A stretch of DNA of 35,198 nt, taken from NCBI GenBank assembly GCA_945861345.1, contig CAMATX010000017.1:1-35198 (forward strand), in the 5' to 3' direction. Origin of the DNA: Comamonas sp. lk (GTDB lineage: Bacteria; Pseudomonadota; Gammaproteobacteria; Burkholderiales; Burkholderiaceae_C). Below the pieces are notes generated by a model that searched no databases, was not told where the DNA came from, and was given only the letters and a program-made list of their open reading frames with translations. Made by a program: the position numbers and the translations under genes. This document shows positions 2,239 to 28,739 of this stretch, piece after piece (the first letter of the stretch is position 1; every line of letters begins with the position of its first letter).

Positions 2239-2309
2239 TTCTTGATTCCTAAAGTTGAAAAATTTAAACCGTTGCGAGGCGACGAAAGTCAGCCAAGCCC
2301 GGCTCGCGC

Positions 2310-2331: not shown

Positions 2332-2341
2332 GAACGGATTT

Positions 2342-2537: not shown

Positions 2538-2577
2538 CTTAAGGCTCTCGATCAGCTGGCTAGGGCCAGCGGACTTT

Positions 2578-3690: not shown

Positions 3691-3778
3691 TTCAAAAATC
3701 TCCAAAGTTGTACAAAACCGGGCGACCCCAAGCGTTCTGGGCCCGCCAATGCCCGCTGATATTCAGTAAGCTACACCT

Positions 3779-11818: not shown

Positions 11819-12853
11819 ATGCCCAGCACCCCACCGTTTTCTCTGTCCATGCTTGACCTGGTGTCCGTGCGCGAGGGGCATACCGTCGCCCAGGCTCTGG
11901 AGGTGGCGCGCCAAACAGTGCAGCACGCCGAGCGCCTGGGCTTTGTGCGCTACTGGGTGGCCGAGCACCACAATATGCAGGGCATCGCCAGTTCGGCAAC
12001 CGCCGTGCTGGTGGGGCATCTGGCCGGGGCTACCGAACGCATCCGGGTGGGCTCGGGCGGCATCATGCTGCCCAACCACGCGCCGCTGGTGGTAGCAGAG
12101 GCCTTTGGCACGCTGGCCGAGCTCTACCCCGGCCGCATCGACCTGGGCCTGGGCCGCGCCCCCGGCACCGACCCGCTAACCATGCGCGCCCTGCGCCGTG
12201 ACCGGGTGGAGACCGAAGAAGACTTCCCGCGCGATGTCGCCGAGCTGCAGCGCTTGCTTGGCCCCGCCCAACCAGGCCAGCGCCTGATCGCCATGCCCGG
12301 GGCGGACACGCAAGTGCCTATTTGGCTGCTGGGCTCGAGCCTGTATTCGGCGCAGCTTGCCGCCCAGCGCGGCCTGCCCTATGCCTTTGCATCGCACTTT
12401 GCGCCGCGCCTCTTGATGCAGGCGCTCGATATGTACCGGTGCTTGTTTCAGCCCTCGGCGCACCTGGCCGCGCCCTATGTGGCCATCGGGGTGCCGCTGA
12501 TCGCAGCGCCCAGCGACGACGAGGCCCAGTTCTTGGCCAGCAGCATTTACCAGCGCGTGCTGGGCATGCTGCGCGGCGAGCGCCGGCGCATGCAGCCGCC
12601 GCAGGCGGGGTTTATGGCGCAATGCACGCCGCCCGAGCGCGCTGGTATTGCCGACTTTTTGGGTGCCGCCGTCGTAGGTGGGCCCGACACGGTGCGCGAG
12701 GGACTGCAGACCCTGGCCCGCCACACCGGCGCCAACGAGCTCATGCTGGTGTGCGATGTGTTTGACCCGGCCCTGCGTCTGCGCGCCTTAGACATTGCGG
12801 CCCAGGTCTGCAGCCCACCCGTGCCGGCCGAGCAGGAAGAAGCGCTGGCCTGA
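11819..12853 (+). CDS. LLM-class flavin-dependent oxidoreductase
   Basis: Luciferase-like monooxygenase family protein of 344 residues, expected to be a TIM-barrel enzyme using reduced FMN; the substrate is unknown. It matches the 'group 1' (YhbW-like) branch: [11 protein letters not shown] at the start, [48 protein letters not shown] and [16 protein letters not shown]. The ATG at 11819 is used because the family homology begins right there; a TTG nine bases upstream is less likely. A CATAAT at 11793-11798 could be its -10 element, but no good -35 accompanies it. It converges with the MFS gene, with a terminator for the latter between them. Confidence 0.92.
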
Positions 12854-12855
12854 CG

Positions 12856-12880
12856 AAAAAGCGCCCGTAACAGCGCGGGC
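12856..12880 (-). terminator. Terminator of the MFS transporter gene
   Basis: Directly after the MFS stop codon, reading on the minus strand, GCCCG and CGGGC form a 5-bp stem with an 8-base loop, followed by GCTTTTTC. The stem is short but GC-only and the T-run is present. Confidence 0.55.
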
Positions 12881-14158
12881 TTAGGGGCCTTCTTGCGGCA
12901 AAGCCCGCGGGTCCATTTGCAGCGCCGCCTGGGAGCTGGCGTCCATCATGACGTAATCAGCGCGGTGGGCCGGTGTGGGGGCCAGGGCGCTTTGGCGCAG
13001 CACGAAATACCAGACCGCGCCGGCCAGGCCCAAGAGCACGACCGAGAAATACAGCATCAGGCTCTCGGGGCCTAGCTGGTCCATCATGCCGCCGGCCAGA
13101 GTGGGGCCGACGGTGGCGCCTATGCCATAGAGCAGCAAGAGCCCGCCGGTGGTCTCCAGCACTTTGGACGGCTCGATCAGGTCGTTGGTATGCGCAACGC
13201 TCAGGCCGTAAATGGAAAACGAGAGAGCGCCGTACAAAATGCCCAGCATGACCAGCAGGTTTTCATACTCGCGCGCCAGGTAAAAACCGATGGCCGCCAG
13301 CACGCAGGAGATCAGGCACACCCAGATCAAAATCCAGCGCCGGTCGTAGCGATCGGACAAATGCCCCACCGGGTACTGGAAGGCCGCACCGCTCAAAATC
13401 GTGGCGGCCATGAAGGTGGCGGTGTGGCTGTCGCTAAAGCCCACGCCCTGACCAAACACATTGCCCAGGCTGTAAAACGTGCCGCTGATCATGCCCGAGC
13501 CGATGGCGGCGATCGCGCCAATCGGCGATATCGCAAACAAATGCACCAGGCTCATCGATGGCGCGTTGGTTTGCTTGGGTTCGCGGATGGTGGTCATGGT
13601 GGTGGGCACCAGCGCAAAAGAAAACAAGATGGAGGCAAAGGCAAACGGCACAAAACCAAAGCGGTCGCCTGCCAAAATCAGCCACTGGCCCAGCGCGGTG
13701 GACACGCCGCTGACGGCCATATAGGCGGCAAACACTTTGCCACGGCTTTCGCGCCCGGCCACCACATTGAGCCAGCTCTCGATCACCATGTACAGGCCCA
13801 CAATGCAAAGGCCCGTGGTAAAGCGCAGCAGCCCCCAAAACCAGGGGTTGGTCCACAGCGCATGGAGCACCGGCAAGGCCGAGGCCACCGAGGCCATGAC
13901 GGCAAAGGCGCGGATGTAGCCCACGCGCCGGATCAGCACCGGGCAGGCGTAGGTGCCGTACACAAAGCCGGCAAAGTAGGCCGACATGATCATGCCGGTC
14001 ACCAGGCTGGAGTATTTGGCCAACCCCGCCTGCGCGCCAATGGCCACTGTCAGCAGCGCAATACCGACCACCAGCATGCTCACCCCCGAGAGCAAAGAGG
14101 CCAGGGGCAAGGTAAGCGGCGACAAACGCGGCAAGCGCGGCAAAAAGGGCAAAGACAT
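12881..14158 (-). CDS. MFS transporter, YcaD-like
   Basis: Major facilitator superfamily permease of 425 residues with about 12 predicted membrane helices, most like the YcaD/UMF group of uncharacterised transporters. Visible landmarks are the loop motif VYGTYACPVLIRRVGYIRAFA after helix 2, MVIESWLNVVAGRESRGKVFAAYM in the fourth to fifth helix region, and FQYPVGHLSDRYDRRWIL at the start of the second half, the repeat of the MFS motif A. The substrate is unknown. Transcribed divergently from the betaine operon with 235 bases between starts. It may be unrelated to the operon, but a role in export or import of a betaine intermediate cannot be excluded. Confidence 0.9.
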   Translation of the reverse strand: MSLPFLPRLPRLSPLTLPLASLLSGVSMLVVGIALLTVAIGAQAGLAKYSSLVTGMIMSAYFAGFVYGTYACPVLIRRVGYIRAFAVMASVASALPVLHALWTNPWFWGLLRFTTGLCIVGLYMVIESWLNVVAGRESRGKVFAAYMAVSGVSTALGQWLILAGDRFGFVPFAFASILFSFALVPTTMTTIREPKQTNAPSMSLVHLFAISPIGAIAAIGSGMISGTFYSLGNVFGQGVGFSDSHTATFMAATILSGAAFQYPVGHLSDRYDRRWILIWVCLISCVLAAIGFYLAREYENLLVMLGILYGALSFSIYGLSVAHTNDLIEPSKVLETTGGLLLLYGIGATVGPTLAGGMMDQLGPESLMLYFSVVLLGLAGAVWYFVLRQSALAPTPAHRADYVMMDASSQAALQMDPRALPQEGP

Positions 14159-14284
14159 GGTTGGCGTAAGCGTACGAGCCGAACAGGCGCGGCCCTAGCG
14201 GCGATGGTGACACAGACGGGGGGCGCTATCTCGCTCAAGGCGGCGTATTGGTGGCCAACCGGACAATTCTTTCGATTGGCGCCC

Positions 14285-14307
14285 CCTGGCGGCGGGCCGC
14301 CGCCAGG
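14285..14307. repeat. Perfect 11+11 GC-rich palindrome in the divergent region
   Basis: Arms CCTGGCGGCGG (14285-14295) and CCGCCGCCAGG (14297-14307) are exact reverse complements around one base. It lies about 87 bases before the operon's first start codon and 127 bases from the MFS start. There is no T-run on either side, so it is not a standard terminator. It may be an operator, a dispersed palindromic repeat or an mRNA leader hairpin. Confidence 0.6.
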
Positions 14308-14393
14308 CGTCGTAATTAGCGGAAAATGTGTCGCACTGTTAGCAAAACGGGCCCAGCCCGGCCAGTACAGTCCACTGGAGAAGGATTTCCGCC

Positions 14394-15137
14394 ATGCACT
14401 CTGACGCCCTGCTCCTGCAAGCCCGCATTGATCTGGCCGCTGCATTTCGCTGGGCTGCGCGCTGGGACATGCATGAATCCATTGCCAACCACTTCAGCCT
14501 GGCCGTCTCCAGCGACGGCCAGCAGTTTTTGCTGAACCCGGTGGGCAGCCATTTCTCGCGCATCCGGGCCAGTGATTTGCTGGTGCTCGATGCCAAGCAA
14601 AGCAGCCAGGAGGTCACTGCGCAGGGCGCCGACCCCACCGCCTGGCATTTGCACGCGGCTTTGCACCAGCGCCTGCCGCAGGCGCGCTGCATCTTGCACA
14701 CGCACATGCCGTATGCCACCGCGCTGTGCTGTCTGCAGGACTACGAGTTTTTGATGCTGGACCAAAACGCCTGCCGTTTTTATGGCCGCATCGCCTACGA
14801 CCGCCACTACGCCGGCATGGCCCTGGAGGCCTCGGAGGGCGAGCGCGTCGCCGCGCTGATGGACGGCGGACAAAGCGTGCTCTTTATGGGCAACCACGGC
14901 GTCATGGTGATCGGCCCCAGCGTGGCCCAGGCGCTTGACGAGCTCTACTACCTGGAAAAAGCGGCCAAGCTGCAAGTGCTGGCCCTGTCCACCGGCCGGC
15001 CGCTGGCCCTGATTCCTGATGCCGCAGCGCGCCTGGCTGCCGCCCAATGGAATGACTACCCCACCGACGCCTGCGCCCTGCATTTGCAGGCGCTCAAAGC
15101 CATCCTTGACCTCGAAGAAACGGACTACGCACTATGA
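14394..15137 (+). CDS. Class II aldolase/adducin family protein
   Basis: Metal-binding class II aldolase/adducin-fold protein, 247 residues. The expected zinc ligands are present: His102 and His104 (LHTHMPY) and His168 (GNHGVM). In fuculose-phosphate aldolase the catalytic Glu73 sits in SSEW; the aligned position here reads PTAW, with Ala83, so a classical aldol cleavage is doubtful. The start is supported by AAGGA about 8 bases upstream. It is the first gene of the nine-gene betaine operon and overlaps the next gene by four bases (ATGA), so it is translationally coupled to the dehydrocarnitine cleavage enzyme. Its role in the pathway is not evident; a decarboxylase, isomerase or lyase acting on a side product is possible. 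Confidence 0.9.
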
Positions 15138-16021
15138 ACCCCAACGTCATCATTACCTGCGCACTGACGGGCGCGGGCGACACCGTCGGCAAGCACCCGG
15201 CCATTCCTGTGACGCCCACGCAGATCGCGGCAGCGGCAGTAGAAGCGGCCAAAGCCGGTGCCACCGTAGTGCACTGCCATGTGCGCAACCCCGCGACCGG
15301 CCAATTCAGCCGCGACCCTGCTTTGTATGCCGAAGTCATGGACCGCATCCGCGATTCGGGTGTCGATGTGATTGTCAATCTGACGGCGGGCATGGGCGGC
15401 GATCTGGAAATCGGCGCGGGCGAGAACCCCACCCACTTTGGCCCCAACACCGACCTGATTGGCCCCATGGCGCGCCTGATCCATGTAGAGCAACTGCTGC
15501 CCGAAATTTGCACTCTGGACTGCGGCACGCTCAACTTTGGCGATGGCGACACGATTTATGTCTCCACCCCCATGGCACTGCGCGCAGGCGCCAAGCGCAT
15601 TACCGAGCTGGGCGTGAAGGCCGAACTCGAAATCTTCGATACCGGCCACCTCTGGTTTGCCAAGCAAATGATCAAAGAAGGCCTGCTGGACAACCCGCTG
15701 TTCCAACTGTGCCTGGGCATTCCCTGGGGTGCACCGGCGGACACCACCACCATGAAAGCCATGGTGGACAACCTGCCCCCGGGCGCGGTGTGGTCGGCTT
15801 TTGGCATTGGCCGCTCGCAAATGCCCATGCTGGCGCAGTCGGTCATTTTGGGCGGCAATGTGCGCGTGGGCCTGGAAGACAACCTCTGGCTGGACAAAGG
15901 CGTACCCGCCAGCAATGGTTCGCTCACCGAGCGTGCGGCAGAAATCATCACCCGCTTAGGCGGCAAAGTCATGACGCCTGCCGAAGGCCGCGTGGCCATG
16001 GGCCTGAAAAAGCGCGGATAA
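15134..16021 (+). CDS. cdhC: BKACE-family 3-dehydrocarnitine cleavage enzyme
   Basis: Member of the beta-keto acid cleavage enzyme family (formerly DUF849, 'Kce-like'), 295 residues. By context it would convert 3-dehydrocarnitine plus acetyl-CoA to betainyl-CoA plus acetoacetate. The zinc-binding pair is His47 and His49 (VVHCHVRNP). Other family stretches are [20 protein letters not shown] and [11 protein letters not shown]. Kce, which cleaves an amino-substituted substrate, has Glu14 in TGAE; here the position is Gly14 (TGAGDT), fitting a substrate without a free ammonium group. It overlaps the preceding gene by four bases and is followed 13 bases later by carnitine dehydrogenase, the classic partner. 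The symbol follows the Pseudomonas carnitine genes, and naming varies between sources. The specificity is inferred from neighbours. Confidence 0.87.
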
Positions 16022-16034
16022 ACCAAGGAAAACT

Positions 16035-17000
16035 ATGTCTTTTGTTACTGAAATCAAGACTTTTGCTGCTGTGGGCACCGGCGTGATCGGCAGCGGCTGG
16101 GTGGCGCGTGCGCTGGCCCATGGCCTGGACGTGATCGCCTGGGACCCGGCCCCCGGCGCCGAAGCCGCGCTGCGCGAGCGCACTGCCAAAGCCTGGGGCG
16201 CGCTCACCGCCCAGGGCCTGGCACCCGGCGCTTCGCAATCGCGCCTGAAGTTTGTCGCCACGGTAGAAGCATGCGTGGCGCAGGCCGACTTCATCCAAGA
16301 AAGCGCGCCCGAGCGCCAAGACTTGAAGCTGGCGCTGCATGCGCAAATTACCGCAGCCGCGCGGCCCAATGTACTGATTGGTTCGAGCACCTCGGGCCTC
16401 TTGCCCACTGATTTTTATGCCAACGCCCAGCACCCCGAGCGCTGCGTGGTGGGCCACCCGTTCAACCCGGTGTATTTGCTGCCTTTGGTGGAAGTGGTGG
16501 GCGGTGTGAACACCTCGCCCGAGGCGATCCAAGCGGCCATGCAGGTCTACCGCTCCTTGAGCATGCGCCCTTTGCATGTGCGTAAAGAGGTGCCAGGCTT
16601 TATCGCCGATCGCTTGCTCGAGGCCATGTGGCGCGAGTCGTTGCACCTGGTCAACGACGGCGTGGCCACCACCGGCGAGATTGACGACGCCATCCGCTTT
16701 GGCGCCGGTATGCGCTGGTCTTTTATGGGCAGTTTTTTGATTTACACCCTGGCTGGTGGCGACGCGGGCATGCGCCACTTTATGGCGCAGTTTGGCCCGG
16801 CGCTCAAACTGCCTTGGACCAAGCTGGAGGCGCCCGAGCTGACCGACAGCTTGCTCGACGCGGTGGCCGATGGCAGCGAAGTGCAACTGGACGGGCGCAG
16901 CATTGCCGACTGGGAGCGCTACCGCGATGACTGCCTGATGGCAGTGCAAGCGGCCATCAAAGCGACCAAGCTCAAACACGGTATCGCCCCCGATGCCTGA
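16035..17000 (+). CDS. cdhA: L-carnitine dehydrogenase
   Basis: NAD-dependent dehydrogenase of the 3-hydroxyacyl-CoA dehydrogenase superfamily, 321 residues, the same size class as known L-carnitine dehydrogenases. It would oxidise L-carnitine to 3-dehydrocarnitine in the cytoplasm. The Rossmann motif is GTGVIGSG (residues 14-21), and the catalytic-His segment reads [20 protein letters not shown]. The C-terminal dimerisation half contains [24 protein letters not shown] precedes the ATG at good distance. It lies between the BKACE gene and a thioesterase (8-base overlap), the order expected for the carnitine to glycine betaine pathway. In some bacteria the dehydrogenase and thioesterase are fused; here they are separate. 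Assignment rests on family plus context. Confidence 0.9.
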
Positions 17001-17478
17001 GACGCTGCTGAGCTACCAATGCCCGGTGGTCGCCGAGTGGGTCGACTTCAACGGGCATTTGCGCGACGCTTATTACATGGTCTTGTTCAGCCACGGCGTG
17101 GACGGGCTGATGGACCAGATCGGCCTGGACGCGGCCGGGCGCCAAGCGACCGGGCATTCGCTCTTTACCTTGGAAGCGCACATCAACTTTTTGCACGAGG
17201 TCAAACTGGGCGCGCAAGCGCAGGTGTATTGCCAGTTGTTGGCCCATGACGCCAAGCGCATGCACCTGGGCCTGGGTCTGTACCTCCAGGGCGATGACCG
17301 GCTGATGGCCTATAGCGAGCAAATGCTGCTCAACGTCGACATGGCTGGCCCGCGCGCCTGCGCTTTTGCGCCCACCGTCATGGCCAAAGTGCAGATGCTG
17401 GCCACGGCGCACCGCAGCCTGGCGCGCCCGCAGTACGTGGGCCGGGTGATTGCCCTGCCGCCAGCCAAAACGCCCTAA
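16993..17478 (+). CDS. Hotdog-fold acyl-CoA thioesterase, probable betainyl-CoA thioesterase
   Basis: 4HBT-type thioesterase of 161 residues. The family motif [18 protein letters not shown] (Asp then NGH) is at residues 15-32, with a mid-protein [10 protein letters not shown] and a C-terminal HRSLARP. It overlaps the 3' end of carnitine dehydrogenase by eight bases, which suggests tight coupling. Known carnitine pathways contain a thioesterase in this position that hydrolyses betainyl-CoA to glycine betaine and CoA, so that is the favoured role. A second, clearly related thioesterase lies about 1.1 kb downstream in the same operon (18590-19147). The two may divide betainyl-CoA and carnitinyl-CoA between them, and which does which cannot be decided from sequence. 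Confidence 0.88.
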
Positions 17479-17481
17479 CCC

Positions 17482-18573
17482 ATGGCCCACGCCCCGCTGC
17501 CCGAACGCATGCACGGCGTGCTGCTGACCGGCTTTGGCGGTCCCGAACAACTGCAGTACCGCGAAGACCTGCCGCTGCCGCTGCCGCGCGTCGGCGAGGT
17601 GCTGATTCGCGTAGCGGGCAGCTCGGTCAACAACACCGACATCAACACCCGCGTGGGCTGGTACTCCAAAACGGTGGACGGCCCAACGCACGGTGCGTCG
17701 GTGGGCTTTGATGCCGCGCAGGACGCAGCGCCCTCGTGGGGCGGCGCGGCCATGGTGTTTCCGCGCATCCAGGGCGCTGATTGCTGCGGCCATATCGCCG
17801 CTGTGGGCGCGGGTGTGGACGCCGCGCGCATCGGCCAGCGCGTGCTGGTGCGCCCTGTGCTGCGTAAGCCAGGGGCTGCGCCTTACGACTTTGACTATTT
17901 CGGCTCGGAATGCGACGGCGCTTTTGCCCAGTACACCCGCGTAGCCGCCACGGCCGCGCTGCCCGTGCACAGCGCCCTGAGCGATCTGGCGCTGGCCTGC
18001 CTGCCCTGCTCCTATTCCACCGCCGAGAACCTGCTCAGCCGCAGTGGGCTGCAAGCAGGCGAGCGCGTGCTCATTACGGGCGCCTCGGGCGGCGTGGGCA
18101 GCGCGGCGGTGCAATTGGCGCACTTGCGCGGCGCCCACGTCATCGCCCAGGCGGCAGCCGACAAACACGCCGTGCTGCGCAGCATCGGCGCGCAAGACAC
18201 CCTGGACCGCCACGCCCCGCTGCGCGCCAGCCTGGGCAAAGACAGCGTGGACGTGGTGATCGACCTGGTGGGCGGCGCCGCCTGGCCGCAGCTTTTGGAG
18301 GTGCTGCGCCGTGGCGGACGCTATGCCACCTCGGGCGCGATTGCCGGCCCGCAAGTCACGCTGGACTTGCGCACGCTCTACCTCAAAGACCTGCGCGTGC
18401 TGGGCTGCACCTGGCAAGACGATGCGGTGTTTGAACAGCTGCTGGCCTACCTGGCCCAAGGCCGGCTCCAACCGCTTCTGGCCGACAGTTACGATTTGCG
18501 CGACATCGCCGCCGCCCAGGCCGCCTTTGAGGCCAAGCGCTTTGTAGGAAAAATCGCGCTGCGCATTCCTTAA
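17482..18573 (+). CDS. MDR-family NAD(P)H-dependent oxidoreductase
   Basis: Medium-chain dehydrogenase/reductase of 363 residues ('alcohol dehydrogenase/quinone oxidoreductase' type). The N-terminal GroES-like half contains VLIRVAGSSVNNTDINTR and GADCCGHIAAVG; the nucleotide-binding half has ITGASGGVGSAAVQLA and VIDLVGG. The usual Zn-ADH ligand motif GHE is replaced by GADCCGH and no four-cysteine structural lobe is visible, so it is probably zinc-independent. A 40-residue insert around positions 65-105 distinguishes it from simple quinone reductases. It starts three bases after the thioesterase stop and is in the operon by spacing. Its reaction is unknown; reduction of an enoyl intermediate or oxidation of a by-product is possible. 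No step in the proposed pathway obviously needs it. Confidence 0.88.
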   Translation: MAHAPLPERMHGVLLTGFGGPEQLQYREDLPLPLPRVGEVLIRVAGSSVNNTDINTRVGWYSKTVDGPTHGASVGFDAAQDAAPSWGGAAMVFPRIQGADCCGHIAAVGAGVDAARIGQRVLVRPVLRKPGAAPYDFDYFGSECDGAFAQYTRVAATAALPVHSALSDLALACLPCSYSTAENLLSRSGLQAGERVLITGASGGVGSAAVQLAHLRGAHVIAQAAADKHAVLRSIGAQDTLDRHAPLRASLGKDSVDVVIDLVGGAAWPQLLEVLRRGGRYATSGAIAGPQVTLDLRTLYLKDLRVLGCTWQDDAVFEQLLAYLAQGRLQPLLADSYDLRDIAAAQAAFEAKRFVGKIALRIP

Positions 18574-18589
18574 ATTAGCAAACCAACCT

Positions 18590-19147
18590 ATGCACACCCC
18601 CGAAAAACGCCTGGGCACGCCGCTCGAAGGCACGCCCGCCAAAACCTGGGACCCGCTGGCGCCCATCGCCGCGCCCCTGTGCCTGCACCAGCCCCAGGTG
18701 CTGCCCGAATGGGTGGACTACAACGGGCATATGAGCGAGTCCTGCTATTTGCTGGTGTTCGGCGACAACTCGGATGCCTACTTTCGCCATATCGGCATCG
18801 ACGAGCATTACCGCGATGAACTGGGCCTGTCTTTTTACACGGTGCAAACACAGATCCATAACATCCGCGAAGTGGCCGAGGGTGCGCCCCTGCGCCTGAC
18901 CTTGCAGCTGTTGGACATGGACGACAAGCGCATGCATATTTTTCACACCATGCACCACGGCACCGAAGGCCATGTGCTGGCCACCGGCGAGCAAATGCTG
19001 GTGCATGTGGACATGCGCCAAGGCCGCGCTGCGCCCATGCCCGCCTATCTGCACGAACGCGTGGCCGCGATTTACCAAGCCCACCGCACCCTGGCGCGCC
19101 CGGCGCAGGCTGGCGCGCCCATCGGCATTCGGCGCAAGGCGGCCTGA
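18590..19147 (+). CDS. Hotdog-fold acyl-CoA thioesterase, second copy
   Basis: Second 4HBT-type thioesterase, 185 residues, with EWVDYNGHMSESCYLLVF at about residues 41-58 and HRTLARPAQAG near the C-terminus, both aligning with the thioesterase at 16993-17478. It has an extra N-terminal stretch of about 25 residues without signal-peptide character. The two genes look like ancient paralogues retained in one operon. In the proposed gamma-butyrobetaine route a thioesterase is needed to free carnitine from carnitinyl-CoA before carnitine dehydrogenase, and another for betainyl-CoA. This copy, next to the acyl-CoA dehydrogenase, ligase and hydratase genes, is the more natural candidate for carnitinyl-CoA, by position only. 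No clear Shine-Dalgarno sequence precedes the ATG. Confidence 0.85.
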   Translation: MHTPEKRLGTPLEGTPAKTWDPLAPIAAPLCLHQPQVLPEWVDYNGHMSESCYLLVFGDNSDAYFRHIGIDEHYRDELGLSFYTVQTQIHNIREVAEGAPLRLTLQLLDMDDKRMHIFHTMHHGTEGHVLATGEQMLVHVDMRQGRAAPMPAYLHERVAAIYQAHRTLARPAQAGAPIGIRRKAA

Positions 19148-19215
19148 GGCCTCGCTTGGCACGCAGCCCCCACGCATTCGTTAAAAACGTTTTACCCCTG
19201 TTAAAAGGCCGCACC

Positions 19216-20388
19216 ATGCAATTTGCCCTGACGAGCGAACACACCATGATCGTGGACACTGTCCGCGCATTTGTCGAAAAAGAGCTGTACCCGCACGAGG
19301 ACTTGGTGGAGCGCACCGACGCCATCCCGCCTGAGCTGGTGCAGTCCATCCAGGCCAAGGCCATCGAGGTGGGTTTGTACGCGGCCAATATGCCCGCCGA
19401 ATTAGGCGGCGGCGGGCTGGACAATTTCACGGTGGCGCTGCTGGAGCGCGAGCTGGGGCGCGCCTCCTATGGCTTGCAAATGCTGGTGGCGCGGCCGAGC
19501 AATATCTTGCGCGCGTGCCAGGGTGCGCAGATCGAAGAATATTTGCTGCCCACCATCAGCGGGGCGCGCCACGACTGCCTGGCCATGACCGAGCCCAACG
19601 CCGGCTCGGACGTGCGCGGCATGCAAACCCGTGCCACCCGCGACGGCAGTGGCGAGAACGCCGACTACCTCATCAACGGCACCAAGCACTTCATCAGCCA
19701 CGCCGATATGAGCGACTTTGTGGTGCTGTTTGCCGCCACCGGCGTCGAGGACACGGCGCATGGACCCAAGAAAAAAATCACCGGCTTTTTGGTCGACCTG
19801 GATTCGCCCGGCCTGACCGTGCGGCGCGGGCCGGCCTGCGTCTCGCACCGGGGCTACCACCAGTGCGAACTGTTTTTCACCGATTGCCGGGTGCCGGCCT
19901 ACAAGCGCCTGGGCGACGAAGGCCAGGGCTTTGACCTGATGGGCCAGTGGCTGGGTGCTACGCGCCTGACGGTGGCCGCCACCAGTGTGGGGCGCGGTCA
20001 GCGGGTGATGGAAATGGCGACCGAATGGGCCGCGACGCGCAAGCAGTTTGGCCAGGCCATTGGCAAGTTTCAAGGCACCGGTTTCAAGCTTGCCGATATG
20101 GCCACCGAGCTGGCCGCTGCCGAGTTGCTGACTTTGCAAGCAGCCTGGAAATGCGACCAGGGCACCATGAGCGATTCGGACGCCGCCATGGCCAAGCTGT
20201 TTGCCTCCGAAGCGCTGGCGCGCGTGACCGATAACGCGCTACAAATTTTTGGCGGCATGGGCCTGATGAGTCAATTACCGATAGAGCGCTTTTGGCGTGA
20301 TGCGCGGGTGGAGCGCATTTGGGACGGCACCAGCGAAATCCAGCGCCACATTATTTCGCGTGCCATGTTGCGCGTGCATGGCGGTTAG
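19216..20388 (+). CDS. Acyl-CoA dehydrogenase, probable gamma-butyrobetainyl-CoA dehydrogenase
   Basis: FAD-dependent acyl-CoA dehydrogenase of 390 residues with all three domains: the N-terminal helical part, CLAMTEPNAGSDVRG (residues 121-135) with the FAD/substrate loop, and the C-terminal QIFGGMGLMSQLPIERFWRDARV. By context it would form crotonobetainyl-CoA from gamma-butyrobetainyl-CoA, passing electrons to ETF. The catalytic base position of medium-chain enzymes (Glu in YEGT) is Asp370 here (IWDGTSEIQ). The alternative Glu of isovaleryl-CoA dehydrogenase aligns with Thr249, so Asp370 is the only obvious candidate base. The ATG at 19216 follows AAAAGG. It sits directly before the CoA ligase gene, two bases apart. 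A role as a crotonobetainyl-CoA reductase (CaiA-like) is the main alternative. Confidence 0.9.
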   Translation: MQFALTSEHTMIVDTVRAFVEKELYPHEDLVERTDAIPPELVQSIQAKAIEVGLYAANMPAELGGGGLDNFTVALLERELGRASYGLQMLVARPSNILRACQGAQIEEYLLPTISGARHDCLAMTEPNAGSDVRGMQTRATRDGSGENADYLINGTKHFISHADMSDFVVLFAATGVEDTAHGPKKKITGFLVDLDSPGLTVRRGPACVSHRGYHQCELFFTDCRVPAYKRLGDEGQGFDLMGQWLGATRLTVAATSVGRGQRVMEMATEWAATRKQFGQAIGKFQGTGFKLADMATELAAAELLTLQAAWKCDQGTMSDSDAAMAKLFASEALARVTDNALQIFGGMGLMSQLPIERFWRDARVERIWDGTSEIQRHIISRAMLRVHGG

Positions 20389-20390
20389 CC

Positions 20391-22472
20391 ATGGCCACGG
20401 TGGCTGAGTCCAAAGCGCTGCGGCGTTTGTTTTCGCCGCGCCATATCGCGGTGTTTGGTGGCGCATCGGCCCACGAGGCGGTACGCCAGTGCAAAGCCCT
20501 GGGCTTTGAAGGCCCGATCTGGCCGGTGCACCCCACACGCCAGGAGATGGATGGCCTGCCCTGCTTTGCCAGCGTGCAAGACCTGCCCGAGGCGCCAGAT
20601 GCCAGCTTTGTGGCCGTACCACGCCATGCCACGATTGAGGTCGTACGGCAACTGGCCGCGCGCGGTGCGGGTGGCGCGATTTGCTACGCCTCGGGCTTTG
20701 CCGAGGTGGGCGGCGAGGGCATGGCCCTGCAGAACGAATTGGTGCAAGCGGCCGGCGCCATGGCGCTGGTGGGCCCCAACTGCTACGGCATGCTCAACTA
20801 TTTGGACGGTGTGGCCCTGTGGCCCGACCAACATGGCGGCCAGCGCCAAAGCCAAGGCGTGGCCTTGATTACGCAAAGCGGCAATATCGGCCTGAACCTG
20901 ACCATGCAAACCCGCGGGATGCCCTTGGCCTACCTGATCACGGTGGGCAACAAAGCGGGCAACAGCATGGAGAGCCTGGTCGAGTGCCTGTTGTCCGACC
21001 CGCGTGTGAGCGTGATTGGCATGCACATCGAAGGCCTGGACGACGTGGCCGCCTTCTCGCGCGTGGCGATCAAGGCCTTGCGCCAGGGCGTGCCTTTGGT
21101 GGCGCTGAAGGCAGGCTCCTCGGCACTGGGCGCGCAAACCGCCATGAGCCACACCAGCTCCCTGGCCGGGCCCGACGCCCTGTACGAGGCGCTGTTTGCG
21201 CGCTGCGGCATTGCGCGGGTGCGCGACCCGGCTGAGTTGATCGAGACCTGCAAGTTTTTACATGTGCATGGACCGCTGCAAGGCAAGCGCATTATTTCTG
21301 CCAGTTGCTCGGGCGGCGAAGCCTCTTTGGTCGCCGACCTGGCCCAGCCGCGCGGCCTGGAGATGCCGCCCATACCGCCCGCGGCCGACGCACGCCTACG
21401 CGCCGTGCTGGGCGACAAGGTCAACGTGGCCAATCCGCTGGACTACCACACCTATATTTGGGGCGATCTGGCCGCGCAGACGGAGTGTTTTGCCGGCCTG
21501 ATGGATTGCCAGTTTGACGCCCACCTATTGGTGCTGGACTACCCCCGTCTGGACCGCTGCAGCGCCGAGAGCTGGTCCACCACGGTGGGCGCTTTTGCCG
21601 CCGCCGCACGCGCCGGGGGGCGGGGGGCCACGGTCGTCGCGTCCTTGCCCGAGGACCTGCCCGAAAGCCATGCTTTGGCGCTGATCGCGCAGGGCGTCGC
21701 GCCCATGCATGGCATCGCCCATTGCCTGGACGCTATTGCCCATGCCGCAGGCATCGGCGCTGCGCGTGCGGCCCAGCCGCCTGCGCAGCCGCTGGCCACG
21801 GTTGCTGCAGCAAACAACGGCCCAATACGCACCCTGACCGAGGTTCAGGGCAAGGCCGCGCTGGCCGCTTACGGGCTGTCGGTGCCGCGCGGTGCGCAAG
21901 TCGGGGCCCAGGAGGCGCCGGCCTTTGCCGACAGCATCGGCTACCCGGTGGTGGTCAAGGCCGTGGCCGCCGATCTGGCCCACAAGACCGAGGCCGGTGG
22001 CGTGCAGCTGCAGGTGCGCGACGCCCAGGGCGTGCGCGAGGCGGTGGCGCGCATGGCCCATTTGTCGGACCAGTTTTTGGTCGAGCAGATGGCCGGGCAG
22101 GTGGTGGCCGAGATCATCGTTGGCGTGCAGCGCGATGCGCAGTTTGGCCTCTCGCTCACGCTGGGGGCGGGCGGCATTTTGGTGGAGTTGCTGCAAGATG
22201 CGCGCACTCTGCTCTTCCCCCTGGAGCGCGCCCAAGTAGAGGCGGCGCTGGCCAGCCTGAAAGTCTGGCCGCTGCTGGCCGGTTTTCGGGGCCGCGCCGC
22301 CGGCGATGTGCCCGCGCTGGTCGACGCCGTCATGGCCATTGCCGCCTACGCCCAAGCGCACGCCGAGGCGCTGCACGAGCTGGACGTCAACCCGGTGCTG
22401 GTGCTGCCCGCCGGGCAGGGCGTACTGGCGGTGGACGCCCTGATTCGATTAACCGGAGAAGCCCATGGCTGA
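20391..22472 (+). CDS. ADP-forming acyl-CoA ligase (fused alpha/beta), probable betaine-CoA ligase
   Basis: Acetate-CoA ligase (NDP-forming) family protein of 693 residues. Residues 1-460 are the CoA-binding and succinyl-CoA-synthetase-like alpha part, with [16 protein letters not shown] and the probable phospho-His254 in MSHTSSLAG. Residues about 480-690 form an ATP-grasp beta part ([45 protein letters not shown]). By context it would activate gamma-butyrobetaine and/or carnitine with CoA at the cost of ATP. This is unlike E. coli, where AMP-forming CaiC and CoA-transferase CaiB do this. It starts two bases after the dehydrogenase stop and overlaps the caiD-like gene by eight bases. Substrate assignment is inference. 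Confidence 0.9.
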
Positions 22473-23247
22473 AGCTGTTTCCTGCGTCGCCCACGGCGGC
22501 GTGCTCACCATCACCCTGAACCGCCCCAAGGCCAATGCCATCAATGTGCCCACCAGTTTGGCGCTCTACCAGGCCTTTTGCCGCCTGCGCGACACGCCGG
22601 ACTTGCGCGTGGGCATCCTGACGGGCAGCGGGCGCTTTTTCTCGGCCGGCTGGGATCTGGCCGGCGCCACCGAGGGCGAGGCCATCGACGCCAACCATGG
22701 GCCGGGCGGTTTTGGCGGCTTGACCGAGTTTTTTGAGCTGGGCAAACCGGTGATAGCCGCCGTCAACGGCCTGGCCATGGGCGGCGGCTTTGAGCTGGCC
22801 TTGGCGGCCGACCTGATCGTGGCCAGTGAGAGCGCCGAATTTGCCTTGCCCGAGGTCAAATTAGGCATGGTGGCCGATTCGGGCGGCCTGCTGCGCCTGC
22901 CCCAGCGCCTGCCGCGCGCGATCGCGCTGGAATTGCTGCTCACCGGCCGGCGCATGGGGGCGGCCGAGGCGGCGCGCTGGGGTCTGGTCAACCAGGTCGT
23001 CACGCCCGAGGCTTTGCTGGCCTCGGCTCAGGCGCTGGCCCAGCACATCGTACAAGCGGCGCCGCTGGCGGTGGGGGCGGTGCTCGAAATTTTGCGCGCC
23101 ACGGCCGCTTTGCCGCTGGCCCAGGGCTACAAGGTGCTGCGCGGGGGCACGCTGCCTACCTACCAAACCATGCTGCGCTCAGAGGACGCGGCCGAAGGCC
23201 CCCGCGCCTTTGGCGAGAAGCGCCCACCGCAATGGCGCGGCCGCTAA
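22465..23247 (+). CDS. caiD: Crotonobetainyl-CoA hydratase (CaiD-like)
   Basis: Enoyl-CoA hydratase superfamily protein of 260 residues, strikingly like E. coli CaiD as I remember it: [57 protein letters not shown] and the closing SEDA-EGP-AF-EKR-P-W-GR. The two catalytic glutamates of the family are Glu110 and Glu130. It would interconvert crotonobetainyl-CoA and L-carnitinyl-CoA in the cytoplasm. GGAGAAG precedes the ATG, which overlaps the ligase gene by eight bases. It is the last gene of the operon; the stop codon lies in the loop of a 6-bp GC hairpin (23237-23254) without T-run. This gene is the strongest single indicator that the operon handles carnitine-type betaines. Confidence 0.93.
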
Positions 23248-23496
23248 GGGCCGCCTGGGCCTCAAGAGCACCGATTCGGGGCGGGACCGCCTCAATTTCA
23301 GGAATTGTCCGCTTGCACAGTATTTGGGCAAAACCTAGGGAATATGCCAATACCGAGCGCTTGAGGGCGGCCTCGGATTGAATTACTATGGCCGCAGAGC
23401 GCAAGGCTTATTGCACTCCGTACCCGTATGGCCTGATTTTTACAGGGGCTGGCGGGGCACTGTTTATAAATCTGCTTGGATTGGAGATCTTCAAAA
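23248..23496 (+). promoter_or_regulatory. Probable promoter/regulatory region of the ABC transporter
   Basis: This 249-base gap contains AAAACCTAGGG (23330-23340), shared as the 12-mer CAAAACCTAGGG with the coq7 upstream region. A TATAAA (23465-23470) could be a -10 element, but the nearest -35-like TTTACA (23439-23444) is 20 bases away, longer than normal. GGAG at 23483 is the ribosome-binding site for the ATG at 23497. The binding protein gene probably has its own promoter here, but I cannot fix it. Confidence 0.4.
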
Positions 23497-25071
23497 ATGG
23501 CAAATGTCGAACAACAAAGCGACTCGGGCATCATCCTCGACCGTCGCCAAATTATTCTCGGAGCTTCGGCGGTAGGCCTGGCGTCCACCTTGGGTGTGTC
23601 GCCTGCCATGGCGCAAAGCACCCCGAAAAAAGGAGGCACACTGCGCATGGGCATGGAAGGCGGATCTCCTTCCGACAGCCTGGACCCACTGACTTACGCC
23701 GACTCCATCCCGATCACCATGAGCCTGATGCTCTGGAACAACCTGGTGGAAGTGGCCGACAACGGTGACGCCGTAGGCGAACTGTTTGAGAGCTGGGAAG
23801 TCAAGCCCGGCGCTGCCGAATGGGTGTTCAATGTGCGCAAAGGAATCACCTTCACCTCGGGCAAGACACTGGATGCCGATGACGTCATCTACTCGCTCAA
23901 TATGCACCGCGGCGAAACCAAATCGCCCGCCAAGGCATTGCTCGCAGACATCAAAGAGATCAAAAAGCTGTCCGCCACCCAGGTGCAAATCACCATGAGC
24001 AAGGGCAATGTGGACTTGCCTTTCAACCTGAGCGATTACCACATCATCGTGGTGCCTAACGGCTACAAAGACTTCAGCAAGCCTGACGGAACCGGCGCTT
24101 TCACCCTCGATGAGTTCCAACCTGGCGTGCGTGCCACCTTCAAACGCAAGCCTGGCAACTACTGGAAGCCCAACCGCGGTAACTTTGACCGCGTCGAGCT
24201 GATCTACATCGGCGACGCCTCGCAGCGCACCACTGCACTGCAAACCGGCACCGTCGATATCATCAACCGTGTCAACCCCAAGACAGCAGGTTTACTGGCC
24301 AAGAGCCCCAACATCAAAGTCTCGCGCACCCCCGGCATGGGCAACCGCTTCTGCTTTGTGGCACACACCGACAAGTCGCCGTTCAGCAACCGCGACGTGA
24401 TGCTGGCGCTGAAGTACGGTATTGACCGGCAAAAAATTGTGGACAACGTCTACAGCGGCTACGCCTCGGTGGGTAACGACAACTGCGTCGGACCGAAGAT
24501 GAAGTTCTACAACCCCAACCAGACGATGAACCGCTTTGATCCCGAAAAAGCCAAGTTCCATATGAAGAAATCGGGCCACACCGGCGCGATTGAGCTGCAA
24601 GTGTCTGAAGGCGCCTTCTCCGGCGCGACCGACGCGGGCCAAATCTTCCAGGAATCGCTCTCCAAAGCCGGCATCAACTTGGACTTGAAGCGCGTTTCGG
24701 CCGACGGCTACTGGGACAACATTTGGCTCAAGCAGCCTTTCTGCGCGGTGTACTGGGGCAACCGTCCGACCATCGACAACCAGCTGACCTCCATTTTCTA
24801 TGGCGGAAAAGCCAATCCTTGGAACGACAGCCACTTCGAGAACCCCGAATTCAGCAAAGCGCTGGAAGCGGCCCGCGTGGAAATCGACACCAAAAAGCGC
24901 CAAGCCCTGTACAACACTTGCCAGGAACTGGTCTCGCAAAACGCCGGCATGGTCAACTACGCGGTGCAGGACTACCTGGACGCGCACACCACCAAGTTGC
25001 AAGGCCTGACTATCTCTGGCCGCTACGACATGGGCGACGACCGTATCCCTGAGAAGGGCTGGTTTGCCTAA
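23497..25071 (+). CDS. ABC transporter substrate-binding protein, family 5
   Basis: Periplasmic solute-binding protein of the peptide/nickel (family 5, DppA/OppA-like) type, 524 residues. The N-terminus has a twin-arginine signal (LDRRQIILGASAVGLAS, Arg17-Arg18) with cleavage after AMA near residue 39, so Tat export is likely. Family landmarks are GGTLRMGMEGG, DSLDPLTYAD, the central FTSGKTLDADDVIYSLN and the C-terminal ALYNTCQELVSQNAGMVNYAVQDYLDAH. The ATG at 23497 has GGAG 10 bases upstream. It lies 249 bases after the betaine operon, and a strong terminator separates it from the permease genes. The ligand is unknown; a betaine such as gamma-butyrobetaine or carnitine is suggested only by position, since family 5 proteins mostly bind peptides, nickel or sugars. 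Confidence 0.92.
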   Translation: MANVEQQSDSGIILDRRQIILGASAVGLASTLGVSPAMAQSTPKKGGTLRMGMEGGSPSDSLDPLTYADSIPITMSLMLWNNLVEVADNGDAVGELFESWEVKPGAAEWVFNVRKGITFTSGKTLDADDVIYSLNMHRGETKSPAKALLADIKEIKKLSATQVQITMSKGNVDLPFNLSDYHIIVVPNGYKDFSKPDGTGAFTLDEFQPGVRATFKRKPGNYWKPNRGNFDRVELIYIGDASQRTTALQTGTVDIINRVNPKTAGLLAKSPNIKVSRTPGMGNRFCFVAHTDKSPFSNRDVMLALKYGIDRQKIVDNVYSGYASVGNDNCVGPKMKFYNPNQTMNRFDPEKAKFHMKKSGHTGAIELQVSEGAFSGATDAGQIFQESLSKAGINLDLKRVSADGYWDNIWLKQPFCAVYWGNRPTIDNQLTSIFYGGKANPWNDSHFENPEFSKALEAARVEIDTKKRQALYNTCQELVSQNAGMVNYAVQDYLDAHTTKLQGLTISGRYDMGDDRIPEKGWFA

Positions 25072-25080
25072 AGGCGTACC

Positions 25081-25097
25081 GATGCCGGTCTGGCATC
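25081..25097 (+). repeat. Small hairpin after the binding-protein gene
   Basis: GATGCC (25081-25086) and GGCATC (25092-25097) form a perfect 6-bp stem with a 5-base loop, 9 bases after the binding-protein stop codon and 28 bases before the terminator. It may protect the 3' end of the binding-protein mRNA. Confidence 0.4.
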
Positions 25098-25125
25098 AGG
25101 CCGCGTCGTAATGCAATAAAGAAAG

Positions 25126-25157
25126 AGGGGTCGGGTTTAACCCGGCTCCTTTTTTTT
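25126..25157 (+). terminator. Strong Rho-independent terminator inside the ABC locus
   Basis: A 10-bp stem (25126-25135 with 25141-25150, two G-U pairs, loop TTTAA) is followed by eight T (25150-25157). It lies between the binding-protein and first permease genes. Either partial read-through makes the binding protein more abundant than the permeases, or the permeases have their own promoter. Confidence 0.92.
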
Positions 25158-25248
25158 GCTCTATGTTTTGCTTCGTTCGACGTAGGCGTTATGCTTGCGA
25201 GGGCGCTTGCCCAAGCGAGCGCTGTTTTTCTCTTACCGATCGCACCTC

Positions 25249-26196
25249 ATGGCTAAGTTGATTGTTTACCGACTGCTTCTGGGCATCCTGACCCTGTTTG
25301 CCGTTTCGGTACTGATATTTGTTTGCACCCAAATTCTGCCCGGCGATGTGGCCTCGGCCGTTCTGGGTCAGGGCGCTACGCCCGAGGCGCTAGTGGTTTT
25401 CCGGCGTGAGCTGGGCCTGGATGTTCCAGCGTACTTGCGCTACTGGAACTGGCTGGTGGGCGCCTTGCATGGCGATTTGGGCGTAGCCCTGACCAACAAG
25501 CGGGTCATCATTGACGACTTGCTGCCCCGCCTGCGCAACACCTTGTTTTTGGCAGGTTATGCCGCTTTGATCGCCATTCCGCTGTCGGTGGGCCTGGGCG
25601 TGCTTTCAGCGATCAACGAAGGCAAGTGGTCTGACCGTCTGGCCAATGTGCTGACCCTGATCGCCATTTCACTGCCCGAGTTTTTCATCGCCTACCTGCT
25701 GATCATCTTTTTTGCGGTCAATGTGCACTGGTTCCCATCACTGGCCATGGTCTCTGGCAGCATGGGCTTTAGCGAGCGGGTATTCCAAACCACCCTGCCC
25801 GCCTTGACGCTGACGCTGCTCGTGGCGGCGCACATGCTGCGTATGACGCGCAGCTCGGTGCTCTCGGTCATGTCCACGCCCTATATTGAGATGGCTTTCC
25901 TCAAGGGTGCCCCCCGGCGGCGCGTCATCGTGCGCCACGCCTTGCCCAATGCGGCAGCGCCCATCATCACCGTCATTGCACTTAATATGGCTTACTTGGT
26001 CGTGGGCGTGGTGGTGATCGAGGCGGTGTTTGTTTACCCTGGTCTGGGTCAGTACATGGTGGACGGCGTCTCCAAGCGCGACGTGCCCGTGATCCAGGCC
26101 TGCGGCCTGACCTTTGCCACCGTGTTTGTCTTGCTCAACACGCTGGCCGATATTTTGGTGATTCTTGTTAACCCGCGCCTGCGCCACCAGCGCTGA
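25249..26196 (+). CDS. ABC transporter permease, DppB-like
   Basis: Inner-membrane permease of 315 residues in the DppB/OppB family, with about six membrane helices: LLLGILTLFAVSVLIFVC at the N-terminus, then the FLAGYAALIAIPLSVGLG and LTLIAISLPEFFIAYLLI segments. The cytoplasmic coupling loop that contacts the ATPase is EMAFLKGAPRRRVIVRHALPNA, matching the EAA-type motif. The ATG at 25249 is chosen because the first helix begins a few residues later. It has no good ribosome-binding site, and the frame is open upstream to 25195. A strong terminator lies about 90 bases before it, so expression depends on read-through or on an undetected promoter. It is followed 21 bases later by the second permease. 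Confidence 0.92.
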   Translation: MAKLIVYRLLLGILTLFAVSVLIFVCTQILPGDVASAVLGQGATPEALVVFRRELGLDVPAYLRYWNWLVGALHGDLGVALTNKRVIIDDLLPRLRNTLFLAGYAALIAIPLSVGLGVLSAINEGKWSDRLANVLTLIAISLPEFFIAYLLIIFFAVNVHWFPSLAMVSGSMGFSERVFQTTLPALTLTLLVAAHMLRMTRSSVLSVMSTPYIEMAFLKGAPRRRVIVRHALPNAAAPIITVIALNMAYLVVGVVVIEAVFVYPGLGQYMVDGVSKRDVPVIQACGLTFATVFVLLNTLADILVILVNPRLRHQR

Positions 26197-26217
26197 GCTT
26201 TTGCCCCCAGACCCACC

Positions 26218-27051
26218 ATGAAACTCTTTGGACACAAGCTGACCGCATCGGCTGCCTTCGGGCTGGCGGTGGTCGGGCTTTTTATCGTGATTTCCTTGTT
26301 TACGCCCTGGATTGCGCCCTATTCCGAGTCCGCTAATGTGGGCGGCACGTGGGACGAACCTTCGATGAAAATGATTTTTGGCGCCGACCAGATCGGCCGC
26401 GACATGCTTACCCGCATGATGTATGGCAGCCGCATGACCATCGGCGTGGCGCTGGCCATTACGACGCTGTCGTTCATCATCGGCATCCTCACCGGCCTGG
26501 TTAGCGCAGTGGTGGGTGGCTATGTGGACGTGTTTTTCACCCGCTTGGTGGATGTGATGCTGTCCATCCCGAGCCTGATTTTTGCGCTCATCATTCTGGG
26601 CGTGTTTGGCTCGAGCATCCCCACACTGATCATGACGATTGCGGTGCTCGATTCCACCCGGGTGTTTCGCCTCTCGCGCGCCCTGGGCATGAACCTGACC
26701 GTCATGGAATACGTCGAGGCCGCCCGCCTGCGCGGCGAAGGCCTGTGGTGGGTAATTACCCGCGAAATTCTGCCCAACGCCTGGGCGCCGCTGGTCTCCG
26801 AGTTTGGCCTGCGTTTTTGCTTTAACTTTCTGTTTATCGCCGGCCTGTCCTTTCTTGGCCTGGGCATCCAACCCCCTTACGCCGACCTGGGCGGCATGGT
26901 GCGTGAAAACGCAGCGGCCATCAACTTCGGCATGATGGCCCCGATCTACCCGGCAACGGCCATCGCCTTGCTGACCGTGTCGGTCAATTTGGTGGTGGAC
27001 TGGATGCTCTCGATTGACGCGCGGCCCTCAGGCGCGCAGGCCGAACTCTGA
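26218..27051 (+). CDS. ABC transporter permease, DppC-like
   Basis: Second inner-membrane permease, 277 residues, DppC/OppC family. It has the N-terminal helix AFGLAVVGLFIVISLF, the periplasmic loop with FGADQIGRDMLTRMMYGSR (the usual GTDxxGRDxxSR motif), the coupling loop EAARLRGEGLWWVITREILPN, and FIAGLSFLGLGIQPPYADLGGM near the end. It partners the DppB-like protein to form the channel. It lies 21 bases after that gene and 15 bases before the fused ATPase gene, in one transcription unit. The substrate cannot be read from the sequence. Confidence 0.93.
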   Translation: MKLFGHKLTASAAFGLAVVGLFIVISLFTPWIAPYSESANVGGTWDEPSMKMIFGADQIGRDMLTRMMYGSRMTIGVALAITTLSFIIGILTGLVSAVVGGYVDVFFTRLVDVMLSIPSLIFALIILGVFGSSIPTLIMTIAVLDSTRVFRLSRALGMNLTVMEYVEAARLRGEGLWWVITREILPNAWAPLVSEFGLRFCFNFLFIAGLSFLGLGIQPPYADLGGMVRENAAAINFGMMAPIYPATAIALLTVSVNLVVDWMLSIDARPSGAQAEL

Positions 27052-27066
27052 GAAAGACCGCTGGGT

Positions 27067-28689
<1,623 letters not shown>

Positions 28690-28703
28690 GTGATCCCTGC
28701 AGT

Positions 28704-28739
28704 TGGCAAATTGGTAGAGGGCGATAAGCCAATTTGCCA
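28704..28739 (+). terminator. Large inverted repeat after the ATPase gene, possible terminator
   Basis: TGGCAAATTGG (28704-28714) and CCAATTTGCCA (28729-28739) are perfect 11-bp arms around a 14-base loop. Only a weak T-rich stretch (ATTCTT) follows, so it may be a poor terminator, a Rho-assisted end or a repeat scar rather than a classical terminator. Confidence 0.5.

Follow-up and report, generated by a model that had tools for sequence, protein, structure and literature searches.

The DNA analysed here, hereafter the window, is the whole of contig CAMATX010000017.1 from Comamonas sp. lk (C17 in our numbering; 35198 bases), part of a genome of 2.63 Mb that is 94% complete. Its central feature is an operon of nine genes at 14394-23247, which we predict to serve the breakdown of gamma-butyrobetaine and carnitine through coenzyme A (CoA) esters. 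A preliminary description, made from the letters of the window alone, had placed a nine-gene cluster here, and this is confirmed: all nine genes lie on the plus strand, with successive gaps of -4, 13, -8, 3, 16, 68, 2 and -8 bases (that is, from -8 to +68). A four-gene Opp-type ABC transporter follows at 23497-28689, 249 bases past the end of the hydratase gene, and the transcription unit may extend into it. A major facilitator superfamily (MFS) gene is divergently oriented upstream of the operon. The genes of the operon and the transporter, with TE1 and TE2 denoting the two thioesterases, are as follows.

14394-15137, plus strand: class II aldolase/adducin-family protein, accessory (NF005689, PRK07490 type)
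15134-16021, plus strand: BKACE, predicted to convert 3-dehydrocarnitine and acetyl-CoA to betainyl-CoA and acetoacetate (PF05853 for the family; the substrate is a prediction)
16035-17000, plus strand: L-carnitine 3-dehydrogenase (NF005471 at 608.6 bits, cut-off 414; trees)
16993-17478, plus strand: TE1, hot-dog thioesterase (4HBT_2, PF13279), putatively assigned to betainyl-CoA from its clade
17482-18573, plus strand: MDR-family zinc-type/quinone-oxidoreductase-like protein, accessory (family models)
18590-19147, plus strand: TE2, hot-dog thioesterase (4HBT_2, PF13279) of a separate clade, directly 5' of the acyl-CoA dehydrogenase gene, putatively assigned to L-carnitinyl-CoA
19216-20388, plus strand: predicted gamma-butyrobetainyl-CoA dehydrogenase (acyl-CoA dehydrogenase family; 60-61% to rhizobial counterparts)
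20391-22472, plus strand: predicted gamma-butyrobetaine:CoA ligase, ADP-forming, fused (ATP-grasp_5 and Succ_CoA_lig Pfam domains)
22465-23247, plus strand: CaiD-like predicted crotonobetainyl-CoA hydratase, a crotonase (scores highest with NCBIfam model NF002936, at 360.8 bits against a cut-off of 500)
23497-25071, plus strand: ABC transporter substrate-binding protein, family 5 (PF00496; rhizobial clusters have one at the same place)
25249-26196, plus strand: ABC transporter permease 1 (57% to its R. etli p42c counterpart)
26218-27051, plus strand: ABC transporter permease 2 (51% to its R. etli p42c counterpart)
27067-28689, plus strand: ABC transporter fused ATPase (58% to its R. etli p42c counterpart)

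Sigma-70-like sites in 14100-29100 number 2, against 3.3 expected by chance, and we claim no promoter. A search of 12800-29100 for structured RNA found none at gathering score.

We propose that the operon is catabolic, for gamma-butyrobetaine and carnitine, and give this reading a probability of roughly 0.84. In the scheme that follows, every substrate, the way in which TE1 and TE2 share the work and the direction in which the pathway runs are predicted from protein families and gene context. The ABC transporter would take up the betaine, and the fused ligase would use ATP to form gamma-butyrobetainyl-CoA via a phospho-histidine, H254, as expected from its family. The acyl-CoA dehydrogenase would convert this ester to crotonobetainyl-CoA, the CaiD-like hydratase would turn crotonobetainyl-CoA into L-carnitinyl-CoA, and TE2 would release L-carnitine, which would make the direction from butyrobetaine to carnitine irreversible. 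Carnitine dehydrogenase would then produce 3-dehydrocarnitine, BKACE would pass the trimethylglycyl part of this compound to CoA with the release of acetoacetate, and TE1 would hydrolyse betainyl-CoA to glycine betaine.

The preliminary description had named seven of these functions and had left out the aldolase and the MDR gene. Judged by family and gene context, the enzyme classes it listed hold up, and the identity of the carnitine dehydrogenase is secure at family level. Its claim that the ligase is ADP-forming is borne out by the Pfam domains ATP-grasp_5 and Succ_CoA_lig and by H254. It had also expected a CoA-dependent hydratase route in place of a dioxygenase. This holds on the same grounds, and no butyrobetaine dioxygenase was seen: in the 94%-complete genome the sole match to GBBH-like_N (PF06155) is a frame of 196 amino acids, the TauD domain (PF02668) not having been searched. 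As far as sequence can say, the function that was proposed for the operon is most likely the right one.

The grouping of these genes is more than chance. Carnitine dehydrogenase is present in 16 of the 36 other genomes of the same genus that were searched. The ligase follows it in all ten loci whose contig reaches that far, with TE1, TE2 and the acyl-CoA dehydrogenase in between, and the other six contigs end earlier; in one of the ten, L062, the ligase itself is interrupted by the contig end. For a wider view we took the best 80 of 589 loci with a ligase relative in GTDB genomes, 11 of them from the window's own group. Presence was scored within the retrieved stretch by scripted bit-score limits, and the counts describe the nearest relatives only. 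An acyl-CoA dehydrogenase match is found in 77 of these 80 loci, a hydratase in 75 and both in 73, while carnitine dehydrogenase is found in 58 and BKACE in 54. All four partners occur together in 52, and in 36 they are joined by the ABC transporter. The nearest named ligase relatives are metagenome-assembled genomes (MAGs) of Comamonadaceae, two of them labelled Rhodoferax, and the isolate names of the Comamonadaceae relatives suggest a freshwater origin. In a sample of 150 genomes of the order, one of them the window's, no other ligase match exceeds 37% identity.

Some variation among these loci is also apparent. L057 and L058 match the window at 95-99% in BKACE, carnitine dehydrogenase and acyl-CoA dehydrogenase, and at just 78-86% in the aldolase, TE1, MDR, TE2, ligase and hydratase, as if recombination or selection had varied along the operon. 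The interval between hydratase and transporter, 249 bases in the window, widens to about 1.2 kb in L065 and L066, and in L080 and L139 a GlxA-like match lies there.

The closest known counterparts are rhizobial. In R. etli p42c and Sinorhizobium sp. B11 the genes for BKACE, a dehydrogenase with a thioesterase domain, acyl-CoA dehydrogenase, ligase, CaiD and a four-gene ABC transporter lie in the same order as in the window. S. meliloti Ak57 shares this order, with the ligase and the first permease missing from its gene table. The ligase gap of Ak57 contains two overlapping open reading frames (ORFs), to which the window ligase matches at 51% and 48%; from their place and two-ORF form this pair is probably BcoAB. 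Bazire et al. 2019 (J Bacteriol 201:e00772-18) reportedly demonstrated the entire S. meliloti route in vitro. BcoAB of S. meliloti is described as a gamma-butyrobetaine:CoA ligase, used to make the CoA ester (PMC8364193), and the S. meliloti dehydrogenase is credited with a dual role on carnitine and betainyl-CoA (PMC12482172, citing Bazire et al. 2019).

The window thus has in common with the S. meliloti cluster the gene order, the ADP-forming ligase, the acyl-CoA dehydrogenase, CaiD, carnitine dehydrogenase, BKACE and the Opp-type ABC transporter. However, the ligase is fused in the window and consists of two ORFs in Ak57, the window has two stand-alone thioesterases where S. meliloti has one fused to carnitine dehydrogenase, the window adds the aldolase and the MDR gene, and the divergent upstream gene is of the MFS type rather than a GlxA-type regulator. 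Because the thioesterase fusion is absent, which is an architectural difference, we file the window as a variant of the S. meliloti-type pathway. As a side observation, the ligase match of L059 (7169-9460) is interrupted by about 220 unmatched bases two thirds into the protein, close to the S. meliloti two-ORF split point. The preliminary description had treated the joining of the enzymes into a route as inference only. This was too cautious: rhizobia share the gene order, BcoAB has been reported as a ligase and the same steps are described for strain HK4. The pathway itself is already known from the rhizobia and HK4, and the window is a variant of it in another bacterial group.

The caiTABCDE genes of E. 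coli bring acyl-CoA dehydrogenase and crotonase chemistry to bear on betaine CoA esters, as in the window. Unlike the window, that system reduces carnitine, uses the CoA transferase CaiB and an AMP-forming CaiC, and has no thioesterase; no member of the CaiB-type CoA transferase family was found among the nine operon genes. The cdh genes of P. aeruginosa are presumably those for BKACE, dehydrogenase and thioesterase. The operon that holds them, caiX-cdhCAB-hocS, resembles the carnitine half of the window in that the three cdh genes lead from carnitine to glycine betaine, but as described it comes without a butyrobetaine half and has the uptake protein CaiX instead (PMC5806209). The industrial strain HK4 is described as converting 4-trimethylaminobutyrate to L-carnitine via CoA thioesterification, dehydrogenation and hydration (PMC3546705). 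The carnitine process of HK4/HK13 is, by description, like the window in having CoA activation, dehydrogenation and hydration followed by carnitine dehydrogenase (PMC3546705, PMC2131755). An Arctic SAR11 island resembles the window in joining carnitine dehydrogenase, BKACE, thioesterase, a class II aldolase and an alcohol dehydrogenase, but has gamma-butyrobetaine dioxygenases (BBOX) in place of the CoA route (PMC12421898). A literature search of titles and abstract openings gave nothing on this operon in Comamonadaceae; subscription papers were mostly outside its reach, and we do not claim absence from print.

The ligase carries a residue signature that bears on its substrate. Our alignment comprised 72 orthologue rows from outside the genus group and 17 from within it, together with the 27 of 29 paralogue loci that passed a coverage limit. 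H254, predicted to be the phospho-histidine position, is kept in 72/72 outside orthologues and 27/27 paralogues. Three aromatic residues behave differently: Y352 and W357 are kept in all 72 outside orthologues and W395 in 70, whereas among the 27 paralogues Y352 and W357 never occur, W395 occurs once, and nine have Phe at 357. A useful comparison is DddX, the ATP-dependent lyase of dimethylsulfoniopropionate (DMSP), which like the window ligase belongs to the ADP-forming CoA ligase superfamily and acts on an onium acid, the class predicted for the window enzyme, but which additionally cleaves its CoA ester (PMC8163506). The window ligase scores 194.5 bits with DddX, against up to about 587 bits in tblastn with the rhizobial ligases. 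Docking and mutation identified Trp391 and Phe435 of DddX as cation-pi residues for the sulfonium group (PMC8163506). In a phmmer alignment these face H353 and S396 of the window ligase, each one position from Y352 or W395. The aromatic signature fits an onium acid as the ligase substrate, and is no proof of which. Y352, W357 and W395 could serve as a marker with which to pick butyrobetaine ligases from the many unlabelled ADP-forming ligases.

A residue of the acyl-CoA dehydrogenase may be mentioned here. Its motif WDGTSEIQR has Asp where the human short-chain acyl-CoA dehydrogenase has Glu (YEGTSEIQR), the position of what we take to be the usual catalytic base of acyl-CoA dehydrogenases. 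Asp is found at this site in 72 of 90 related loci and Glu in 18, Mesorhizobium and Marinobacter included.

One distinctive feature of the window operon, which is new here, is that it has two stand-alone thioesterases from separate clades. The preliminary description was right that two are present, and can be corrected in that they are of different clades. Each has a single NCBIfam match (E <= 1e-5), to the thioesterase portion of NF005716, the model for a fused carnitine 3-dehydrogenase. TE1 scores 122.9 bits with it and TE2 161.8, and both are thereby linked to this pathway. In a midpoint-rooted tree of 89 sequences, with some long branches and several flagged placements, TE1 falls in a 25-row clade (support 100/99) with stand-alone enzymes from Burkholderia and Caballeronia, which adjoin the dehydrogenase in carnitine-only clusters. 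TE2 groups with sequences from Novosphingobium-group loci, one Streptomyces and one Hyphomicrobiales MAG in a clade of 22 rows (support 98/86), and its kin lie next to butyrobetaine genes. The MAG (L089) has both types, and the Novosphingobium-group loci L094, L098 and L107 have a TE2-clade gene besides their dehydrogenase-fused domain. In the gammaproteobacterial loci L123, L140 and L155 a TE2-like gene, from a clade neighbouring TE2 and outside the TE2 clade itself, adjoins the acyl-CoA dehydrogenase, ligase and hydratase; no match to carnitine dehydrogenase or BKACE was found there in 22 kb. Because of these neighbouring genes we suggest that TE1 acts on betainyl-CoA and TE2 on carnitinyl-CoA, a division of labour that makes a testable proposal.

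The two halves of the operon also have different nearest kin, since outside the genus the carnitine half is nearest to carnitine-only clusters and the ligase and hydratase are nearest to those of Streptomyces L087. Family f55 is a case of the former. Nine of its ten genomes with a match have a dehydrogenase at 78-80% to the window's, and its loci L207 and L208 have BKACE at 82-83%, carnitine dehydrogenase and TE1 at 51-52%, with no ligase in 16-17 kb. Burkholderia multivorans L202 has BKACE at 78% and dehydrogenase at 74%, and in L202, L207 and L208 alike BKACE adjoins carnitine dehydrogenase. In a 42-row dehydrogenase tree the window group is sister to f55 (100/98), with Burkholderia and Caballeronia next; an earlier placement as sister to Burkholderia/Caballeronia was dropped when the addition of two f55 genomes made f55 the sister. 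Among the loci compared for the butyrobetaine half, which left out f55, the closest ligase (61%) and hydratase (66%) are those of Streptomyces L087, and the closest acyl-CoA dehydrogenase (76%) is that of Sphingomonadales L094. A ligase tree by a quick method puts the window group with L087 (96 SH-aLRT). The ancestry of the operon is on this sequence comparison mosaic. A further combination is seen in L209 (genome G193), where a CaiD-like gene and an Opp-type transporter lie close to a group of genes for BKACE, carnitine dehydrogenase, TE1 and acyl-CoA dehydrogenase. No ADP-forming ligase match was found there within 18 kb, and activation may depend on a different enzyme.

The glycine betaine formed would probably be demethylated by an MttB-family protein together with an MtgC/MtgD-like pair encoded elsewhere in the genome, in a route that would end in serine dehydratase. 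Candidates for the first and last of these lie further along the window.

30585-32171, minus strand: MttB-family methyltransferase, candidate glycine betaine methyltransferase MtgB (PF06253, 777.9 bits; no in-frame TAG)
32389-33789, plus strand: L-serine ammonia-lyase, candidate end step from glycine through serine to pyruvate (TIGR00720, 694.7 bits, cut-off 345.1)

Several relatives also carry an MttB-family gene and a serine dehydratase gene next to the operon; for the MttB-family gene these are L057, L065, L066, L077, L078, L083 and L085. Three complete MttB-family genes and a partial one occur in the genome, whose contig C49 carries an MtgC-like corrinoid protein, DUF1638, a RACo-type activator, a pterin-binding protein and a GbdR-like regulator. 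The genome thus has candidates for all four kinds of protein expected in aerobic MtgBCD demethylation (MttB-family, MtgC-like corrinoid, pterin-binding protein and activator), although the MtgC-like one stays under its model cut-off. The set on C49 matches parts named for glycine betaine use in Ruegeria pomeroyi, where MtgB, MtgC and MtgD work with RamA and DUF1638 (PMC12478193). A canonical GbcA was rejected as the next step; the sole Ring_hydroxyl_A protein found scores 54 bits, against 670 for GbcA. From the genes seen, an oxygenase-free glycine betaine route is possible, the search for oxygenases being non-exhaustive.

We tentatively extend this to a longer chain, with the odds against it as a whole: freshwater Comamonadaceae would take gamma-butyrobetaine all the way to pyruvate with no oxygenase. 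In this picture TE2, the acyl-CoA dehydrogenase, the fused ligase and the hydratase would form a transferable module for butyrobetaine, which has been joined to a carnitine module with TE1, and the product would feed cobalamin-dependent demethylation of glycine betaine. If true, carnitine-type compounds would be used without an oxygenase and without the release of trimethylamine, a possible oxygenase-free and trimethylamine-free sink for such nutrients. The pathway of the rhizobia and of an industrial carnitine strain would be extended to freshwater Comamonadaceae. Where the window departs from the known systems is in the two thioesterases and the mosaic ancestry, which are the new details, and in the aromatic signature of the ligase and the downstream MttB-family and serine dehydratase genes with the MtgC/MtgD-like set.

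A number of points count against the catabolic reading. BKACE passes no substrate-specific NCBIfam cut-off, the acyl-CoA dehydrogenase reaches 196.5 bits against the CaiA model cut-off of 540, and the hydratase stays under the cut-off of its best model (360.8 against 500). Downstream, the MtgC-like protein scores 202.8 bits against the NCBIfam MtgC cut-off of 370, and the GbdR-like regulator is also under its model cut-off. The scheme gives no step to the aldolase or the MDR gene. In 22 of the 80 ligase loci a carnitine dehydrogenase match is lacking from the retrieved stretch, in some just because the contig is short. The thioesterase split is imperfect: the sole thioesterase of L101 lies beside its carnitine dehydrogenase and yet falls in a clade neighbouring TE2, and Streptomyces L087 has no dehydrogenase match and a BKACE match at the locus edge, although its dehydrogenase may be just outside the retrieved stretch. 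Finally, Glu393 of the window ligase aligns with Glu432, the proposed catalytic base of DddX.

One alternative is that the CoA half runs in reverse, in enterobacterial style, from carnitine to gamma-butyrobetaine as an electron sink, with the dehydrogenase branch separate. The CoA chemistry between carnitine and butyrobetaine is reversible in principle, and the hydratase is nearest to a CaiD-type model. We nevertheless consider this very improbable, given the lack of a CaiB-type CoA transferase among the nine genes, the position of TE2, predicted to destroy the CoA ester, beside acyl-CoA dehydrogenase in all ten same-genus loci that reach the ligase, and the example of HK4, which with the same steps oxidises 4-trimethylaminobutyrate (PMC3546705). 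It is also improbable that ligase, acyl-CoA dehydrogenase and hydratase serve another short acid, such as DMSP or another betaine, and merely adjoin a carnitine operon. This would suit the alignment of Glu393 with the DddX base, the membership of DddX in the ligase family (194.5 bits), the weak similarity of the MDR protein to acryloyl- and crotonyl-CoA reductase models, and the occurrence of the three genes in some clusters, such as L123, L140, L155 and three Marinobacter loci, without a nearby carnitine dehydrogenase match. It fits poorly, however, with the 52 of the best 80 of 589 loci that join the ligase set to carnitine dehydrogenase and BKACE, with the rarity of Glu at 393 in orthologues (6/72 outside and 2/17 genus-group rows, against 10/27 paralogues), and with the reported role of BcoAB, the ligase's counterpart in S. 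meliloti, as a butyrobetaine:CoA ligase (PMC8364193). The pathway could also be as proposed with TE1 and TE2 redundant, each hydrolysing both CoA esters, as the fused rhizobial domain presumably must. The rhizobial clusters make do with one thioesterase domain, fused to the dehydrogenase, and L101 has a single thioesterase, so this deserves serious weight. We think it unlikely all the same, in view of the separate, supported clades with different neighbours and of L094, L098 and L107, which keep a TE2-clade gene in addition to the fused domain. Glu393, L101 and L087 slightly lower our confidence in the catabolic reading and in the oxygenase-free chain to pyruvate, and slightly raise that in another acid as the ligase substrate.

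The aldolase and the MDR gene are called accessory because they are missing from the loci of some relatives. No aldolase match was found upstream of BKACE in L062, L063 and L071, and no MDR match in L069, L071 or L083-L086. The aldolase was rejected as a general carnitine gene, there being no linkage to carnitine dehydrogenase in a sample of the phylum, even if the SAR11 island mentioned above has the two together. Here 65 of 398 genomes, the window's included, have a carnitine dehydrogenase match (E <= 1e-50), and, the window aside, no aldolase match (E <= 1e-30) lies within about 80 kb of the dehydrogenase on the same contig; these searches score just the best few candidates per genome, and misses are possible. 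Distances between the two genes were computed for the 11 genomes with both on one contig, and the others were compared by eye.

Near the contig start, two genes on the minus strand at 1255-3705 encode proteins that look porin-like by eye.

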